Below the pieces are notes generated by a model, which saw nothing but the letters and a program-made list of their open reading frames with translations, did not search any database and was not told where the DNA came from. 64,000 bases of DNA, from positions 2,369,372 through 2,433,371 of the forward strand of contig NZ_JAJKFV010000029.1 of NCBI RefSeq assembly GCF_020966775.1, in the 5' to 3' direction. The first letter of the stretch is position 1, and every line of letters begins with the position of its first letter. Shown in pieces: positions 36,459 through 44,637 of this stretch. The DNA is from Rhodopirellula halodulae (GTDB taxonomy: Bacteria > Planctomycetota > Planctomycetia > Pirellulales > Pirellulaceae). A program made the translations under genes and the position numbers.

Positions 36459-39400
36459 GTGGCATCGGATCGCGACCCACCAACAAAAAAACAACAGACC
36501 CAATCGGATCTGCCTTCGACCAAGTCGTTGTTCGATGCCACGGTTGCATCGGAAGACGGGGAGCGTTTGATCGAAACTCCCGATTGGATTGGTCGCTACC
36601 GAATCGTGCGGCGGATCGGGAGTGGTGGTTTTGGATCGGTCTTCCAAGGCAAAGATGAATCGCTCAACCGTGATGTCGCCATCAAAGTCCCGATTCGTTT
36701 GCTCGATGACGCCAGCGACGAATATCAGTGGACATCCGAAGCTCGGATGGTTGCTCAACTGGACCATCCCAACATCGTTCCGGTGTACGATATTGGTCAA
36801 TCCAAGGCGTTGCCGTTTTACGTCGTGTCGAGGTACATCGAGGGAGCCGATCTTTGCGAGCGAATGCAGGCATCCAAACCTGCGTTGGACGAGACCGTTC
36901 GATGGGTCACCGAGATCGCGGACGCTCTGCATCACGCGCATCAACAAGGGCTCGTTCATCGCGATGTCAAACCGAGCAACATTCTGATCGATCAGCAGAA
37001 TCGAGCTTGGCTGACGGATTTCGGTTTGGCCATCAGCGACGATGTTCCACGACCTGTTCGCGGTGGCAGATTGATTGGGACCTATTCGTACATGAGTCCC
37101 GAGCAGGCGCGTGGGGAAGGACACTTGGTGGATGGTCGTGCCGACCTCTTCGCACTGGGCATTGTGTTGTACGAGCTTCTGGTTGGACGGCGCCCCTTCG
37201 AAGGAGGTTCCAGCCGACAATTGCTGCAGAACATCATGCACGCCGCCCCAAAGCGTCTTTGCCAAGTTAATCCGGAAGTGCCGTTGGAGCTGGAACGCAT
37301 TTGTTTAAAAGCGTTGGCGTTGCGAGTCTCTGATCGCTACGTCGATGGATTGGCGATGGCGAACGATCTTCGCGGCTTTCAGATGCTTGGATCGACCGCT
37401 GATGCAAGTGTTGACCTTTCCGGCGAGTTTTTGCCTTCGTCGGGTAGCGGATCACGGCGATCATCGGGGATGTCGGCCACTGCTACGAGGGCGAATGCAC
37501 CTCGGGGTGAAGGCGAGCCACGCGTGGTTCCGAAAGGGCTTCGAGCGTTTGATCGTCACGACCAAGATTTCTTTTTGCAATTGGTACCGGGAGCGCGAGA
37601 CGCCAGAGGCGTTCCGGAGGTGTTGCGGCAGCTTAAGATCCGAGTGGATTCCCGCGAATCGCAAGACACGTTTCGGGTTGGGTTGATCTACGGGCCGTCG
37701 GGTTCGGGAAAGTCTTCGTTGATGCACGCGGGTTTGGTGCCGTTGCTATCTCGGTCTGTCGAAGTGGTCTCGGTCGAAGCGAATGCCAAGCACACCGAGT
37801 CTCGAATTTTGTCTGAGCTTCAGAAGCTGGATTCCAGTGTTGCTCAGCAGACGACGCTGATTGGTGCGATGGCGCAGATACGCAAGAACAGCGTCAGTGG
37901 CGGCAAGAAAGTTCTGTTGGTGATCGACCAATTCGAGCAGTGGTTGCACGCTCATCCAACCATTCGTGACGAAGTCTTGCTGGATGCCATTCGGCAGTGC
38001 GATGGAAAAAATCTGCAGTGTTTATTGCTGATCCGAGACGATTTCTGGATGCCCGCAACGCAGTTCTTTCATGAGTTGGATTTGCGTTTGGTGCAAGATT
38101 TCAACTGCGTTGCTGTCGATCGATTCGATGTCAAACATGCCGAGTTTGTGCTGAAAGAGTTTGGACGTGCCTACGGTTGTCTGCCAGAGAATCTGGATGG
38201 GATGACAGAGGAACAACGCAAGTTTGTCCAGCAAATTGTTCGAGGCGTGCAAGAAAACGGCAAGGTGATTTCCATCCACCTGGCTGTGTTGGCACAGATG
38301 TTGAAAGGCCAACAGTGGGATTTGAAAACGTTGGCCGAGTTCGGCGGCGCGGAGGGTGTCGACACGGGCTACTTACGAATGACATTCGAAGGCATCCACG
38401 CACCTCCACACCACCGACGATTTCGCGAACCGGCCAAAGCCGTGCTGGCGGCGTTGTTGCCGGAACGCGCGGCAAACATCAAAGGGCAGATGGTTGCGAG
38501 TGATCAGCTACAACGGATCGCTGGTTTGGACGATGAGACGTTCGATGAATTCGTTGAGATGATGGACGGCGAACTTCGTTTGATCACGCCGACCGCCGCC
38601 ACGGAATCAAGCGATTCCGACATTACGAATCGAAGCTATCAGTTGACCCACGATTTTCTCGTGCAGCCCATCCGACAGTGGCTGACCGAAATGGATCAGC
38701 AGACGGTTCGAGGCAGAACCAAACTTCGTCTGGCGGAACTGACCGAATATTGGAAACGCAACCGCGACAATCGGTTTCTACCCAGCGGTCTGGAGTATCT
38801 GCGTTTCCTCGCCCTGACCGATTCCGGCCAACGCTCTGACGAGCAGCAGCAATTAATGGCGGCGGCGTCAAAACATCACGGTACTCGATGGGCGATCGCG
38901 GTGCTGATGATGCTGATGTTGGGAGTGACGGCAGGCATCTTGTCACAGAGTGTGCGTCGTCGGTTGGCGGACCAACAGACCGATTCGAATGTCGCTCGGT
39001 TGCTGACCGCCGACATCGCGATGATTCCCGATGCGATCAACTCCATCGCAGACCTGAACGAGGATCCTCCTCAGCAATTGATTGACTTGCTGCAGGAACA
39101 AGACGTCTCCGATCGTCAAAAATTCGCGGCGCGATTGGCATTGGTGCAATCTGATCCGGGGCAAGTTGTCCCGCTGATCGAAATGATCCCGCAGTTCAAT
39201 CCGGATGGTCTTTCGTTGATCGCCGAACGCTTGAAACCTCACCAAACGATCGCGACGCCTGAGCTCTGGTCGCGTTTTGAATCGAGCCGATCCGACGAAA
39301 CGAATCAGTTGAGATTCGCTTGGGTCTTGGCGCAGCTCGACGCGGCAAGTGGGAAGTGGCAGCGGCACGCATCAACCGTTGTTCGAAGCATCGTCAATCA

Positions 39401-41981
39401 AAACCCAACACAAGTTGGTGAATTCATTCCCGGGTTGGTTCCGATTGCCAAAGTTCTGATCGAACCCGCCAGTCGCTATTTCGCGGAGTCAGGTTTGGCG
39501 GACAATTCTGCCGCGGAAAGCAGCGACATCATCAACCGTGATACGCGTTTGAACGCGGCGTTTCTACTCTCGAAGTGCATCGGGCCCGAGGATGCGGTGC
39601 TGGCGGAGTTGCTCGCCGTCGCCGTGGACGATGAGTTTGAGCTGTTGATGTCAGTCGCGGAGCGTGACCCGGATGCGGTTGCAAGTCGTTTGCGAGAAGA
39701 ATTGCGGCAACACGCCGAACCTGAATGGTCCGATGAACAGGAGTTGTCCGAATTCTCATCCCCCGACGCGGCGCTGGTGCAACGCGTGCAAGCGTTTGGC
39801 GGTTTGGTCACAAACACTTTCGCATTGATCCAGAAGTGTCCGTTGGCAAAGTTTTTGGCGGTAGCAGAATCGCTCTCGGAATTCGGCTATCGACCCGAGT
39901 GTGTTCGTGTTTACGAGAGTTCCACCGACCCTTGGGTGGCGTCCGTTTTGGTGCGAGACGGCTTGGATTGGGAGTTCACGTTCCCAGCCGATCGCAACGA
40001 AGTCGGTGAGTTGCAAACGCAAATGCGGTCTCGAGGAATGTACCCGTGTGACGTTACCGCCATCCCCGCCAATGCAGTTGGGATGGCTGCTGGTGGCGAA
40101 GCAATGGACGCGGACGACGTGCCGACCGGGCAAAGATACGGAGTCCTTTGGACTCGGCTTCCTTCCGGAACCTTGGACGCGAAAATTTATGTTGGTCTGA
40201 ATGAGTCCGAGCATCAGCCCAAGGGGTGGGGGCCGCTTCTCAGCGGTGGGTTTGTTCCAAAAGCGAATTTGAAACAACGCGATTCAAAGGGAACGGACCA
40301 CTACAGTTCCGTGCGTTTCCGAATGGTCGCGTCTCCGATCACTGATGATACCTGGAACGACAGCCCATTCAGTTTTCGGTCTCGAAACGTGGTGGGCAAG
40401 TATCAAACCGATGTCCGTTTGAATCCGCCAGGAGAGTTCGATGAGGAAAGCGTGAGCTACTCCGCGATTTGGTGGAACGGCGGTGACTTTGAATCGAAAA
40501 CTCTGACGCAGCTACCGATCGACGAGCACCTTGCAAAGGCGAACGAATTGTCGGCGGATAATTATCGAGCCGTCAGTTTGTCGGTGGTTCAAGATGGCGA
40601 CCAGCTTGTCGCGGCTTCGGTGTGGCATCGGCCCGTGGTGACCGATACGCAGAAAGACCATGTTGCCAGTCGGCAAGCCAATGCAATCATTGCCTTGGCT
40701 CGATTGGGAGTTGTTCAGCCGTTGTGGGAGGCATTGCAACTGGAGCCGGATCCTCGTCTACGATCGTTTCTGGTCGATCGTATGGCACGCCTCGAAATGC
40801 CTGTTCAGACGCTGCTGGCACGTTTAGAAGACGAGCAAGATGAGTCCACCAAGTTCGCGGTGTTGGCTGCAATTTCCAAGTACCGACCGGATCAATTGTC
40901 CAACAGCCAATTGCGGGGACTTCGGGAGCTCACGACCAACTGGGGAACAACGGATCCTCGAGCCTCGATTCATGCAATCTGTCGGTATTTGGCCAACCGT
41001 TGGGGATGGGGCGAGACGGTTGCCGCCATCGATGACGCGGAATCGCCCAATGGCAGCAGCACAATTGACTCCGCGAAGGTTGGCTCTGATGGATCGCCCG
41101 GATGGATTCGAAACGGGCAAGGACAGACTCTCGTCACGATTTCAGGGCCGGTATCATTTCAAATGGGATCGCCGGCTCACGAGGCTTTTCGCGATCATGG
41201 GTTGGAGGCACCGGTCCAAGCCAAGATCCCACGCTCGTTTGCAATCGCGGATTCCGAAGTCACCTTGGAACAATACCAGCGATTTGATCCCGAAGCCGAT
41301 TACGCCACCCAGTACGCGCTGCATCCGGATTGTCCAATGACATCCGTGCGTTGGTTCCATGCAATCAAATACTGTCGATGGTTGAGCGAGCAAGAAGGCG
41401 TTCCTGAATCGCAGATGTGTTATCCGTCGATCGAGGAAATTGAACGCGACTTCGATAGCCCGGATGGGATTCGTCGTCCCAAGGACTTCCTGAAGCGAAC
41501 CGGGTATCGGCTGCCAACGGAAGCGGAATGGGAATATGCCTGCCGTGGTGGCACCACGACGCCACGTTCCTTCGGCCATTCACCCGAGTTGCTTTCGCAA
41601 TACGCTTGGACAACCGAGAATTCAGCACGCAACTCGCAGGTGCTGTTTCATCCTGTCAAGCAATTGATGCCCAATCCATTTGGTTTGTTTGATACGCTCG
41701 GCAACGTGATGGAATGGTGTGAGACACATGATTTCTCACTTCGCGGCAAACAGACAACGATGGTTGATTCCGAACTTGGTTTGCTCGACACGCGTTCCAT
41801 TGACCGAGTCGCGCGGGGAAGTGCGGTGTTCTATGTGCCAACAACCATGCGAAGTGCCAAACGCGAACAGGAAAAGGTTTACACGACTCATCCTTATCTT
41901 GGTTTCCGAATCGCACGAACGATTCGATCGGAATCGGACGCAAACGACGAATCAACGGCGACGGTCATCGAGACCAATTGA
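36459..41981 (+). CDS. Hanks-type Ser/Thr kinase fused to a STAND-type ATPase and an FGE-like (SUMF1) domain
   Basis: 1,840 residues from a GTG start. Residues ~45-310 are a protein kinase with IGSGGFGSVF, K76 in AIKVP, HRDVKPSN and DFG, all catalytic residues present. Residues ~370-760 resemble an nSTAND/AAA+ signalling ATPase, with the P-loop GPSGSGKSS near 410 and Walker B LLVIDQFEQW near 485-498. A transmembrane helix lies near 810-830. About 700 residues follow with HEAT-like helices and a beta-rich stretch. The C-terminus (~1560-1830) is an FGE-sulfatase-type fold. It lacks the catalytic cysteine pair of true formylglycine-generating enzymes, so it is probably a binding domain. Confidence 0.85.
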   Translation: MASDRDPPTKKQQTQSDLPSTKSLFDATVASEDGERLIETPDWIGRYRIVRRIGSGGFGSVFQGKDESLNRDVAIKVPIRLLDDASDEYQWTSEARMVAQLDHPNIVPVYDIGQSKALPFYVVSRYIEGADLCERMQASKPALDETVRWVTEIADALHHAHQQGLVHRDVKPSNILIDQQNRAWLTDFGLAISDDVPRPVRGGRLIGTYSYMSPEQARGEGHLVDGRADLFALGIVLYELLVGRRPFEGGSSRQLLQNIMHAAPKRLCQVNPEVPLELERICLKALALRVSDRYVDGLAMANDLRGFQMLGSTADASVDLSGEFLPSSGSGSRRSSGMSATATRANAPRGEGEPRVVPKGLRAFDRHDQDFFLQLVPGARDARGVPEVLRQLKIRVDSRESQDTFRVGLIYGPSGSGKSSLMHAGLVPLLSRSVEVVSVEANAKHTESRILSELQKLDSSVAQQTTLIGAMAQIRKNSVSGGKKVLLVIDQFEQWLHAHPTIRDEVLLDAIRQCDGKNLQCLLLIRDDFWMPATQFFHELDLRLVQDFNCVAVDRFDVKHAEFVLKEFGRAYGCLPENLDGMTEEQRKFVQQIVRGVQENGKVISIHLAVLAQMLKGQQWDLKTLAEFGGAEGVDTGYLRMTFEGIHAPPHHRRFREPAKAVLAALLPERAANIKGQMVASDQLQRIAGLDDETFDEFVEMMDGELRLITPTAATESSDSDITNRSYQLTHDFLVQPIRQWLTEMDQQTVRGRTKLRLAELTEYWKRNRDNRFLPSGLEYLRFLALTDSGQRSDEQQQLMAAASKHHGTRWAIAVLMMLMLGVTAGILSQSVRRRLADQQTDSNVARLLTADIAMIPDAINSIADLNEDPPQQLIDLLQEQDVSDRQKFAARLALVQSDPGQVVPLIEMIPQFNPDGLSLIAERLKPHQTIATPELWSRFESSRSDETNQLRFAWVLAQLDAASGKWQRHASTVVRSIVNQNPTQVGEFIPGLVPIAKVLIEPASRYFAESGLADNSAAESSDIINRDTRLNAAFLLSKCIGPEDAVLAELLAVAVDDEFELLMSVAERDPDAVASRLREELRQHAEPEWSDEQELSEFSSPDAALVQRVQAFGGLVTNTFALIQKCPLAKFLAVAESLSEFGYRPECVRVYESSTDPWVASVLVRDGLDWEFTFPADRNEVGELQTQMRSRGMYPCDVTAIPANAVGMAAGGEAMDADDVPTGQRYGVLWTRLPSGTLDAKIYVGLNESEHQPKGWGPLLSGGFVPKANLKQRDSKGTDHYSSVRFRMVASPITDDTWNDSPFSFRSRNVVGKYQTDVRLNPPGEFDEESVSYSAIWWNGGDFESKTLTQLPIDEHLAKANELSADNYRAVSLSVVQDGDQLVAASVWHRPVVTDTQKDHVASRQANAIIALARLGVVQPLWEALQLEPDPRLRSFLVDRMARLEMPVQTLLARLEDEQDESTKFAVLAAISKYRPDQLSNSQLRGLRELTTNWGTTDPRASIHAICRYLANRWGWGETVAAIDDAESPNGSSTIDSAKVGSDGSPGWIRNGQGQTLVTISGPVSFQMGSPAHEAFRDHGLEAPVQAKIPRSFAIADSEVTLEQYQRFDPEADYATQYALHPDCPMTSVRWFHAIKYCRWLSEQEGVPESQMCYPSIEEIERDFDSPDGIRRPKDFLKRTGYRLPTEAEWEYACRGGTTTPRSFGHSPELLSQYAWTTENSARNSQVLFHPVKQLMPNPFGLFDTLGNVMEWCETHDFSLRGKQTTMVDSELGLLDTRSIDRVARGSAVFYVPTTMRSAKREQEKVYTTHPYLGFRIARTIRSESDANDESTATVIETN

Positions 41982-42105: not shown

Positions 42106-42567
42106 ATGAGCACGCACCCTGAGAAACTTCGTTGCATGGCTTTGTCGGGCACGATTTCCATCCCGCCGCGGTTCCCTGACATCGCGACCATCTCTTTCGA
42201 GAAAGGCGATGCTCCCAGTGACCCGGTGTTGATTGTGGCGACTCAAAGATTGTCGCCCAAGTTGACCCTTCGACGATCATTCCGTGCCGAAGACGTTTGT
42301 TCGGTTTTTGTTCCCGCTAGCGAAACTCAGGTCGACTACGAAAAGGGAGCTTGGCTGCACGATGTGGAGTTGGCGGACAAGGTTCAATCCATGACCAACA
42401 AAGGAGCGATTCGCGGAATCCTTTATGTTCGCGAGCATGCACAATCTCTCTTGGAGATGGATGCCGGCATGACAGCCGCGGAGAGCGCGGAATTTTATCC
42501 TCCGCTTCCCGAAGATCGGTCGGTCAATCACTACAACATGGAACCGATTGCGATCCCTTGCCAGTGA
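42106..42567 (+). CDS. Protein of unknown function next to the kinase fusion
   Basis: About 153 residues from ATG 42106; a start at 42046 is possible. It is mainly beta-strand-like (CMALSGTISIPPRFPDIATISF, DPVLIVATQRLSP) with an acidic tail. No signal peptide or known motif. Its stop overlaps the GTG of the next glycosyltransferase gene by GTGA, so the two are coupled. The function is unknown. Confidence 0.6.
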   Translation: MSTHPEKLRCMALSGTISIPPRFPDIATISFEKGDAPSDPVLIVATQRLSPKLTLRRSFRAEDVCSVFVPASETQVDYEKGAWLHDVELADKVQSMTNKGAIRGILYVREHAQSLLEMDAGMTAAESAEFYPPLPEDRSVNHYNMEPIAIPCQ

Positions 42568-43934
42568 CTTTCGCTGTTCGGGATGTTCCTGAGATCGATG
42601 TGGTGATTCTGTCTCGGGACGAGTCGGCCATCAACGCTACGGTTGTCAGCGCGTTGCGGTCGCAAGTCGGTGTCAATCTGTCCGTCCATCGTATCGTGGG
42701 GGCTCCGCGATCGACGGATTCAGGACGTATCGCCACCATCGTGCGAGCACGAAACGAAGGCGTGCACTGTGGGAACTCCGCACTGGTGATGTTTCTCGAC
42801 GACGACGTGGTTCTCGCGAGTGACTGCATCGCCAGGCTACATCACGCGCTAATGTCGCGACGCGATCAGGCTGGAGTCGCCGCGGATTATCTCGGCGAGT
42901 CGAGCGGCGTTTCTCCAAGCAAGCACGTCGCGATGGGGGCAACGTTGTTCTGGAGATCGGTGCTGCAGCAACAGCCGTTTCGCTATGAACCGGGGCGTTG
43001 CGAATGTCTGTGCAAGTGTGAAGATGTCCGTCGGCTAGGTTTGCGGATTGACTATGTCGCAGGTGCCCGGGCGGAGCATCGGAAACAAAACCTGCCTTGC
43101 CAGAGCCATTCTCATGCCGTCGCAGGAGAGGAGTTCAAAGCAAAAGAGGAACACCCGGCCAAAATATTGGTCGCATTCAATCGGCGAGATGTTCCTCGAT
43201 TTCGAAATGGCTTTTTGCGAACATTGAGGAGTTGTGGCAACGACGAGCAAGTGATCGCTGTCGGCTATGGTCTTTATCCCAGCGAAATCACACGTCTCGC
43301 GAGTGAGCCGAATCTGCGTTTGATTTCCAAACCGTACAACGGCCAGTTGCCGCCAGTGCGTCGGTTGTCTGACTTCGCGAGCGTTGCCGCCGAGTTGCCG
43401 GAACAGACTCCGTTGGCTTATTGGGATGCGGGCGATGTCTTGTTCCAGGGAAAACTCTTGCCGTTGTGGGCTCTCGCGCGATCCAATCCGACGAAGATCC
43501 TGGCGGTACGAGAACCCAGTGGATATCCAGAAAATCCCGCGATTCGCGGTTGGACTCAAACGATCTCAGATATGTCGATGAGGCGACAGGTGTTCGAGCG
43601 ATTCGCGACGAACCCGTTCCTCAACAGCGGATTCGCGGCGGGATCGGCCCGTGCGATGCGAGGCTATTTCGAAGAGGCCGTTCGGCTGCGCGCATCGTCT
43701 TCGCTGCGAGGGACGACGGATTGGGGCGACCAAACAGCATTGAATTTGTTTTGTCACAGCGATCCAGAACGCTGGGCGGAGGTTCCTCAGGAATGGAACT
43801 ACTGCGTGCACGATCGCGTCCGCGGTGAAGTTCGAATTTCACCCGAGGGAATCGTGTTCGATCGAAATGGGAAAGTTCCAACAGTCGTCCACGGCAACGC
43901 CAGGTCATTGCGGCAGTTTGCCATCCTTCGATGA
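42564..43934 (+). CDS. Two-domain glycosyltransferase-like protein
   Basis: About 456 residues starting at the GTG that overlaps the previous stop. The N-terminal ~190 residues are a GT2-like fold with IDVVILSRDESAI and the DDD cluster LVMFLDDDVVLASD. A second domain from about residue 195 shows AKILVAFNRRDVPRF, DWGDQTALNLF and NYCVHDRV, a pattern seen in GT8-like or other small sugar transferases. Two transfer steps in one polypeptide are likely. It is close to the GT25 gene (13 nt downstream), so it belongs to glycan synthesis, perhaps for a surface polymer. Confidence 0.75.
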   Translation: MTFAVRDVPEIDVVILSRDESAINATVVSALRSQVGVNLSVHRIVGAPRSTDSGRIATIVRARNEGVHCGNSALVMFLDDDVVLASDCIARLHHALMSRRDQAGVAADYLGESSGVSPSKHVAMGATLFWRSVLQQQPFRYEPGRCECLCKCEDVRRLGLRIDYVAGARAEHRKQNLPCQSHSHAVAGEEFKAKEEHPAKILVAFNRRDVPRFRNGFLRTLRSCGNDEQVIAVGYGLYPSEITRLASEPNLRLISKPYNGQLPPVRRLSDFASVAAELPEQTPLAYWDAGDVLFQGKLLPLWALARSNPTKILAVREPSGYPENPAIRGWTQTISDMSMRRQVFERFATNPFLNSGFAAGSARAMRGYFEEAVRLRASSSLRGTTDWGDQTALNLFCHSDPERWAEVPQEWNYCVHDRVRGEVRISPEGIVFDRNGKVPTVVHGNARSLRQFAILR

Positions 43935-43947
43935 GCGAGAAATTGGG

Positions 43948-44637
43948 ATGCAATCGATTGACGAAGACACACCGACATTCGTCATCAGTTTGTTGGACGA
44001 AGCATCCGAACATCGTCGACGGCAAGTCAAACGTCACTTGGATCGAGCAGGCTTTCGGAATGCGACCTTCGTCCGTGCCAAGTCACCAGACAGCGAGCAA
44101 TTTGCTCAGCGAGGCTATCCCAGCGAACTACAAGGACGTTGGCGCACTGATTTGCGGCATTTGTGGGGAAGCGCGGCGTGCACCTTGTCGCATTTACAGT
44201 TCTACGGACGTGGCACGGATGAATTGCCGGTGATCATTCTGGAAGACGATGTCACGATTCATCCAGACTTCTTTCACTACATGCAGCGAATTGAATTCCC
44301 TTGCGAAGTGGATTGGGACATTTGTCATTTGGGGCTGACCAACCCGAAAATCTCCGCGATTGAAAATCCAGAACGCGTGGTGACGCCACAATTGGTTCGT
44401 TGTCCGCCGAATGAGGTCGCCTGCACCCACAGCTACATCCTTCGACGTCCAATCTTGGATCGTCTGCTGCCCATGCGAGAGGAGGTGGATTGGCAATTGT
44501 CTCGCTGCACCGAGTCAATCCGCAGTTTCGTGATCGATCATGATCCGAAATTGGTTCAGCCTGACTTCCAAATGCCCAGTGTTCGCACGGCGATCGATCA
44601 TGTTGCGTGGCACCGCAATAATCCAGAAACCGCGTGA
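43948..44637 (+). CDS. Glycosyltransferase family 25-like protein
   Basis: About 229 residues. It shows FVISLLDEASEHRR at the start, ALVSHLxF-like ACTLSHLQFYG in the middle and VIILEDDVTIHPDF, whose EDD acid cluster matches the GT25 catalytic region. C-terminal DPKLVQPDF is also family-like. GT25 enzymes add galactose or glucose to lipopolysaccharide or collagen-like acceptors. The gene follows the two-domain glycosyltransferase by 13 nt and was probably co-transcribed with it. An upstream in-frame ATG at 43825 would overlap the previous gene and is not favoured. Confidence 0.8.
   Translation: MQSIDEDTPTFVISLLDEASEHRRRQVKRHLDRAGFRNATFVRAKSPDSEQFAQRGYPSELQGRWRTDLRHLWGSAACTLSHLQFYGRGTDELPVIILEDDVTIHPDFFHYMQRIEFPCEVDWDICHLGLTNPKISAIENPERVVTPQLVRCPPNEVACTHSYILRRPILDRLLPMREEVDWQLSRCTESIRSFVIDHDPKLVQPDFQMPSVRTAIDHVAWHRNNPETA

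Follow-up and report, generated by a model that had tools for sequence, protein, structure and literature searches.

The window analysed here, a stretch of 64,000 nucleotides from Rhodopirellula halodulae, carries on its plus strand a long gene (36459-41981) that we call the receptor gene. Its ORF has a GTG start and encodes 1,840 residues; the start codon is not certain, since the R. europaea homologue begins differently. An earlier note, made from the letters alone, had described in this protein a fully equipped kinase, a STAND ATPase with intact Walker motifs, a membrane helix and an outer part ending in an FGE-like domain, and had read their arrangement as a receptor-like layout with the STAND domain between sensor and kinase. 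This description held up, the layout being backed by conserved motifs and by a domain order found in many genomes, and the outer part could be refined into HEAT-like, BTRD-like, helical and FGE regions.

A Hanks-type Ser/Thr kinase domain occupies residues 47-280 (36597-37298; Pfam PF00069, E=3.2e-43). The sequence features of this kinase type are all in place, namely the Gly-loop (G54, G56, V61), the VAIK lysine (K76), the glutamate (E94), the HRDxKxxN motif (H167, D169, K171, N174) and DFG (D187-F188-G189), and the catalytic residues are without variation across 18 aligned sequences, the window's included. When a model of the kinase-STAND part was compared with the PDB (Foldseek), Stk1/PknB-type kinases stood at the top for the kinase part. 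The receptor thus shares with the PASTA kinases (PknB/Stk1) its closest kinase domain by structure and a receptor layout, but Pfam matched no PASTA repeats in it, the match to the PknB_PASTA model is below cut-off and confined to residues 45-311, and a STAND domain and an FGE sensor are present instead. Kinase models and relatives of the FGE fold also appear, below cut-off, among the best 25 of 27 NCBIfam matches to the protein.

The kinase is followed by an nSTAND1 NTPase domain (residues 359-770; 37533-38768), which scores far above the Pfam cut-off (PF20703, 76.1 bits against 27.1, E=5e-21). Its Walker A motif, GPSGSGKS (residues 412-419; 37692-37715; G412, S414, G415, G417, K418), and its Walker B motif, VLLVIDQFEQW (residues 485-495; 37911-37943; D490, F492, E493), are intact, and the key residues of both are invariant in 18/18 aligned sequences. 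The receptor is by far the strongest nSTAND1 match of its genome (E 4e-22), where the three others, at E 5e-6 to 1e-3, are weak and one just exceeds the cut-off. Structure prediction, which the earlier note had recommended for the full protein, was run in parts, and the kinase-STAND model (pLDDT 87.1) reached a pTM of only 0.62, so that the relative placement of the two domains is not settled.

Hydropathy places a single membrane helix at residues 811-829 (38889-38945). A hydrophobic stretch (mean of at least 1.3) lies past the STAND domain in all 77 sequences that are long enough, out of 80; at a stricter threshold of 1.6, L041 and L043 fail. Charges around the helix show a weak positive-inside bias across the family (mean of 3.77 K/R versus 2.82) and none in the window receptor itself (2 versus 3). 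We infer an orientation with the kinase inside and the outer part outside, since a kinase needs cytoplasmic ATP.

The ectodomain and its FGE/C-type-lectin fold

The outer part was modelled with high confidence (residues 831-1840, from an alignment with 60 relatives; mean pLDDT 90.9, pTM 0.90). In the model, helical repeats are followed by alpha/beta repeats, further helices and the FGE fold. The AlphaFold2 model gives a HEAT-like helical region at residues 832-1082 (38952-39704); a BTRD-like alpha/beta repeat region at 1121-1392 (39819-40634) is supported both by the model and by a Pfam BTRD1 match at 1353-1391 (E=4e-6); and a second HEAT-like helical region, again from the model, spans 1396-1525 (40644-41033). 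The FGE/C-type-lectin-fold domain at the far end (residues 1566-1820; 41154-41918) is identified by profile (Pfam PF03781, FGE-sulfatase, E=5e-36) as well as by fold. Across the family the outer parts vary in what they carry besides the FGE domain, with HEAT_2 matched somewhere in 19/61 members, Laminin_G_3 in 3/61 and PA14 in 1/61.

In the Foldseek ranking of the ectodomain model against the PDB, Treponema denticola TvpA (2y3c, E 6.6e-12) comes first, followed by PvdO, PorK and only then by FGE enzymes; TvpA is also the best solved relative of the FGE domain by sequence. We take TvpA, whose PDB entry is titled 'variable protein 1', to be a DGR variable protein. Further down, at rank 20, stands the fungal chitinase-modifying protein 7tpu (E=1.2e-4), presumably a polyglycine hydrolase, and this match would agree with that to BTRD1.

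Several observations bear on whether the FGE domain is a catalyst. The stretches that align with true FGE enzymes end ahead of the active-site position. The catalytic cysteine pair of these enzymes, as we assume, sits near the C-terminus, at the equivalent of window residues 1783-1822, and that stretch holds no cysteine in the window protein; among 61 family members, the aligned stretch contains at least one cysteine in 20 and at least two in 8. Because the cysteines are missing, the domain probably binds rather than catalyses, and we rejected its being an enzyme in the window protein as unlikely.

Relatives and DGR targeting of the putative sensor

The outer part was searched against 119 whole genomes of the family, and with up to 6 candidates per genome scored the counts are lower bounds. 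A full-length match, starting no later than residue 5 of the query and reaching at least to residue 1014, was found in at least 8/119 genomes (G000, G087, G045, G091, G101, G083, G106, G013). Long ORFs with a Walker A match are present in 18 of the 20 loci retrieved, the exceptions being L059 and L060. With the STAND alignment as query, 375 relatives were found in named GTDB genomes, and we kept the best 79 loci. Planctomycete taxa appear in the titles of all of these but L080, which is called just 'bacterium'. Across the phylum, the same kind of search found matches at E<=1e-40 in at least 7/246 genomes, with up to 7 candidates scored in each.

Nine of the 79 loci are open at the C-terminus and 70 have the ORF end inside the contig. 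The order kinase-STAND-FGE is kept in 60 of these 70 C-terminally complete ORFs, drawn from loci that were picked by their STAND domain. The earlier note had held that loss of the Walker motifs in relatives, or a domain order specific to one strain, would speak against its reading, and we found the motifs retained and the order shared by these 60. The remaining 10 have no FGE match; by eye some of them resemble frameshifts, and L123 and L132 may be true alternatives. The latter, from Rhodopirellula sp. JC639 (L132:6954-9923), is a kinase-STAND protein whose ORF ends near the limit of the stretch examined and whose C-terminus, by eye, has a putative sensor of another kind together with a further membrane helix, the second of the protein. 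Another locus (L049:3943-15046) carries a pair of adjacent kinase-STAND-FGE receptor genes on one strand, encoding 2,007 and 1,591 aa.

Pfam named kinase and nSTAND1 in 62/62 inner parts and FGE in 61/61 outer parts, in sets selected for having them; the inner alignment (A5) comprised the window and 61 of 68 eligible loci. Column identity averages 60% for the inner alignment versus 17% for the outer, in a set selected by the inner part. Compared pair by pair, the five closest proteins (window, L061, L062, L063, L042) have an average identity of 69% in the kinase, 68% in the STAND domain, 63% in the FGE domain and 49% in the ectodomain ahead of it. A third point that the earlier note had set against itself, relatives lacking the STAND ATPase, applies in part: more distant kinase-FGE proteins occur without it (L059 and L060, which have no Walker A motif, and L226, L228 and L174, in which Pfam finds no STAND family), so that STAND is not needed in every kinase-FGE protein.

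In one relative, the far end of the receptor is a DGR target. A single Planctomycetaceae MAG contig (L139/L223) encodes a bAvd protein and a reverse transcriptase together with a template repeat and two target genes (L223:1538-16473), and both targets are full kinase-nSTAND1-FGE genes, 2,078 and 1,437 aa long as stop-free frames, whose ends are formed by variable copies of the template (FNNNAQNLRSANRNNNNPDNRNNNNGFR). Over the 121-bp comparison, 14/15 and 16/17 differences (30/32 in total) fall at template A, although A makes up 27% of the template (p 1e-7 and 1e-8). By alignment with these genes, the window equivalent of the variable region is residues 1783-1819 (41805-41915), and its sequence corresponding to the template is VFYVPTTMRSAKREQEKVYTTHPYLGFR. 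That two full-length relatives are targeted suggests that, in evolutionary terms, the FGE surface is the site of recognition.

Such targeting was rarely seen within the loci themselves: of 60 C-terminally complete FGE genes, only that of L139 had a template/variable repeat inside its locus (flanks of up to 8 kb). Sequences similar to the L139 reverse transcriptase (E<=1e-30) occur in 19/49 family-carrying genomes (from 50 of the 79 loci) and in 45/392 sampled genomes of the phylum, counts of similarity alone and not proof of a DGR. Around 53 L139-like reverse transcriptases, scripted detection found template/variable pairs at 36 loci, and at 7 of the 53 (L174, L181, L223, L226, L227, L228, L238) an ORF with kinase and FGE matches contains the variable region; since the loci were chosen by reverse transcriptase similarity, these counts are not rates. 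Among these seven, only the ORF of L223 also has an nSTAND1 match; the Pfam scan for other STAND families covered L174, L226, L227 and L228. The target at L227:11094-14825 (minus strand) combines kinase, NACHT and FGE, a second STAND type in the same layout. A BLAST of the 60 FGE gene ends against the 53 DGR loci as remote templates returned many ordinary homology matches and is not used for counting.

The window genome itself has no RVT_1 match and no match to the L139 reverse transcriptase, and on this search for the enzyme we reject a DGR of its own. Over the 34 positions of the variable-region equivalent, average identity among the five closest sequences is 69%, against 63% for the whole FGE domain, and the window is 91% identical to R. 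europaea. The ligand of the window receptor is probably fixed, because this five-member clade conserves the equivalent of the variable region and no reverse transcriptase was matched.

Linked glycosyltransferase genes

Behind the receptor, on the same strand, lies a gene for an unknown conserved protein of 153 aa (42106-42567), followed by one for a glycosyltransferase of 456 aa with a GTG start (42564-43934) and, 13 nt further on, by one for a glycosyltransferase family 25 (GT25) protein of 229 aa (43948-44637; Pfam PF01755, E=2.7e-8). The 153-aa protein has no Pfam match at E<=0.1; it ends in a conserved tail of the type LEMxAGMTAAESAxxYPPLPxDRSxxHY. The 456-aa glycosyltransferase has weak GT2-like and GT8-like matches below cut-off and two matches in the PDB (E 0.06 and 0.07). 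The earlier note had placed the receptor beside glycosyltransferases and a coupled gene. The neighbours are as described, and they are moreover conserved partners, which goes beyond what had been claimed; the coupling of the 153-aa gene is to the transferase, which it overlaps by 4 nt, as opposed to a gap of 124 nt to the receptor gene. Operon signals were uninformative, with 3 promoter-like sites versus 3.6 expected and 16 terminator-like sites versus 10.7 +/- 3.5.

Homologues of the 153-aa protein and the 456-aa transferase lie behind the receptor in seven relatives, R. europaea (L061), R. solitaria (L062), CA13 (L063), L042, L045, L046 and L047, and a GT25 gene does so in four (L061, L062, L063, L042). 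None of the three genes was found in L044, a full-length relative with no transferase within the 15 kb examined, or in the remaining loci searched (L041-L139, L223), among which L041 and L043 come from the same genomes as L063 and L062, respectively. In four of the relatives, a gene for a papain-like (C1A) protease lies on the opposite strand between the receptor and the 153-aa gene (L061:12393-13910 (-), L062, L063, L042); the window has no match to it.

Among the 119 family genomes, the transferase occurs in 9 and the 153-aa protein in 8, seven of these being receptor genomes. Both genes are close to the receptor in 7/8 receptor genomes, and the transferase occurs in 2/111 others: G063 has the transferase with an ORF resembling the 153-aa protein ahead of it, G082 has partial matches to both genes, and on neither contig was a receptor seen. 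Fisher's test for the linkage gave p=5e-9 and 1e-9 uncorrected for kinship, values that overstate it because the genomes are related. In a tree of the kinase and STAND domains (FastTree, midpoint-rooted, N-truncated ORFs excluded), a single clade (support 0.87) unites the 8 linked receptors among the 77 tips. The linked genes suggest that glycan synthesis is either the output of the receptor or the thing it senses, and this is the least secure step of our interpretation.

A probable receptor kinase with a putative STAND switch

Our preferred reading, which we hold somewhat better than evenly probable, is that the protein acts as a receptor kinase which crosses the membrane once and contains a STAND switch, and in which ligand sensing tunes a linked glycan or glycosylation output. 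The outer part, with its helical repeats, BTRD-like repeats and FGE/C-type-lectin fold, would bind a ligand in the periplasm or outside, and binding would be relayed through the one membrane helix to the nSTAND1 NTPase. By analogy with other STAND proteins, this domain may work as a switch that lies between membrane and kinase and depends on ATP; with ATP bound it should change state and oligomerise, which would bring the PknB-like kinase domains together to activate each other in trans. The activated kinases would then phosphorylate cytoplasmic targets. In the window clade, the linked 153-aa protein and the glycosyltransferases are candidate substrates and the likeliest outputs, and through them the ligand may regulate a surface glycan or the glycosylation of proteins. 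The ligand and the targets in this scheme are deduced, as are the topology, the oligomerisation and the activation of the kinase. It fits because the signalling core is conserved, the outer part changes, the far end is of lectin type and a DGR rewrites that end in a relative.

The alternative that survives best, though we regard it as doubtful, is an NLR-like defence or conflict receptor, whose FGE domain would sense a phage, predator or non-kin surface and whose kinase would start a protective or suicidal response. The earlier note had raised a defence role, and the gene neighbours lend this little: 14 PADLOC families (E<=1e-10; TIR, mad3 and DNA-methylase types) were matched by one ORF each in the 119 of 198 ORFs scanned next to the receptors of relatives, a set from which ORFs over 600 aa, many short ones and loci after L122 had been left out and which has no random control, and Pfam added one bpMoxR protein of a described ternary conflict system. 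The receptor's own PADLOC matches (best 25 of 36 families) fall within residues 37-353, the kinase part, and were given no weight. Against defence, too, the five closest sequences conserve the variable-region equivalent, and the window clade keeps its glycosyltransferase neighbours. The idea nevertheless stays alive because L223 is DGR-diversified, and because STAND+FGE proteins are, in the accessible parts of two papers (PMC10907252, PMC8195603), putative conflict sensors and DGR targets; the kinase-NACHT-FGE target of L227 points the same way.

We think it unlikely that the protein instead serves in environmental sensing or in development (responding to algal polysaccharides or contact with a surface, for example, or controlling a life-cycle switch) with an output unrelated to the linked glycosyltransferases. 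FGE-bearing kinases do occur beyond the window clade, and, as far as the accessible text of PMC11032199 goes, SUMF1-type domains rank third in abundance among the accessory domains of planctomycete kinases and lie mostly in the periplasm in single-helix kinases; however, such a receptor would leave the conserved linkage to the 153-aa gene and the glycosyltransferase unexplained. It is highly improbable that the protein serves to modify sulfatases, with regulatory domains joined to an active formylglycine-generating domain, since the Pfam name, the clear homology and the many sulfatases of planctomycetes are outweighed by the cysteine counts, by the ranking of TvpA, PvdO and PorK above FGE enzymes by fold and by the position of the domain across the membrane helix from the kinase.

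The receptor kinase with a STAND switch that we favour has partial counterparts in print, compared here with the accessible portions of each paper. The single-helix planctomycete kinases with a periplasmic SUMF1/FGE-type domain (PMC11032199) have the kinase inside and one helix, the layout predicted here; the window protein adds a STAND domain between kinase and helix, a HEAT/BTRD region, linked genes and, in a relative, a DGR. The EAD-nSTAND1/NACHT-FGS conflict proteins (PMC8195603, PMC10907252), some of them DGR targets, share the STAND NTPase and FGE/C-type-lectin sensor, whereas the window protein has an N-terminal kinase with all catalytic residues, an FGE domain across a membrane helix and no adaptor domain named by Pfam. 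Cyanobacterial DGR targets (PMC7517822) join a kinase to a C-terminal lectin-fold sensor, as do the diversified proteins of L223, but they are mostly predicted to be cytosolic, with no STAND domain mentioned in the accessible text, and in the window genome no reverse transcriptase was matched. The antiphage Avs and bacterial NACHT proteins (PMC10907252) have the same effector-STAND-sensor order; the window receptor would differ in spanning the membrane, with a kinase as effector and a lectin-fold sensor outside.

What we consider new is the close linkage of the receptor with the 153-aa gene and the glycosyltransferase. We found no description of this receptor and gene pair, or of the order kinase-nSTAND1-membrane-FGE, in the accessible parts of a mostly non-subscription literature without supplements (including PMC11032199, PMC8195603, PMC10907252, PMC7159879, PMC8144416 and PMC7517822), which is weak evidence of absence. 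Single kinase-nSTAND1 proteins may already be in the figures of PMC10907252, since a legend there names both domains among DGR target proteins.

More tentatively, the family may be a planctomycete class of transmembrane pattern receptors whose kinase-STAND core stays constant while the lectin-fold sensor can change, being diversified by DGRs in some members; the window clade would have frozen its sensor and tied it to a pathway of the 153-aa protein and the glycosyltransferase. If our reading of the window protein is right, a bacterial receptor kinase would here have an NLR-type STAND switch placed between an external lectin-fold sensor and the kinase. The candidate binding surface, a mutable Walker motif and the linked genes as candidate outputs would offer handles on it in cultured Rhodopirellula-type bacteria.
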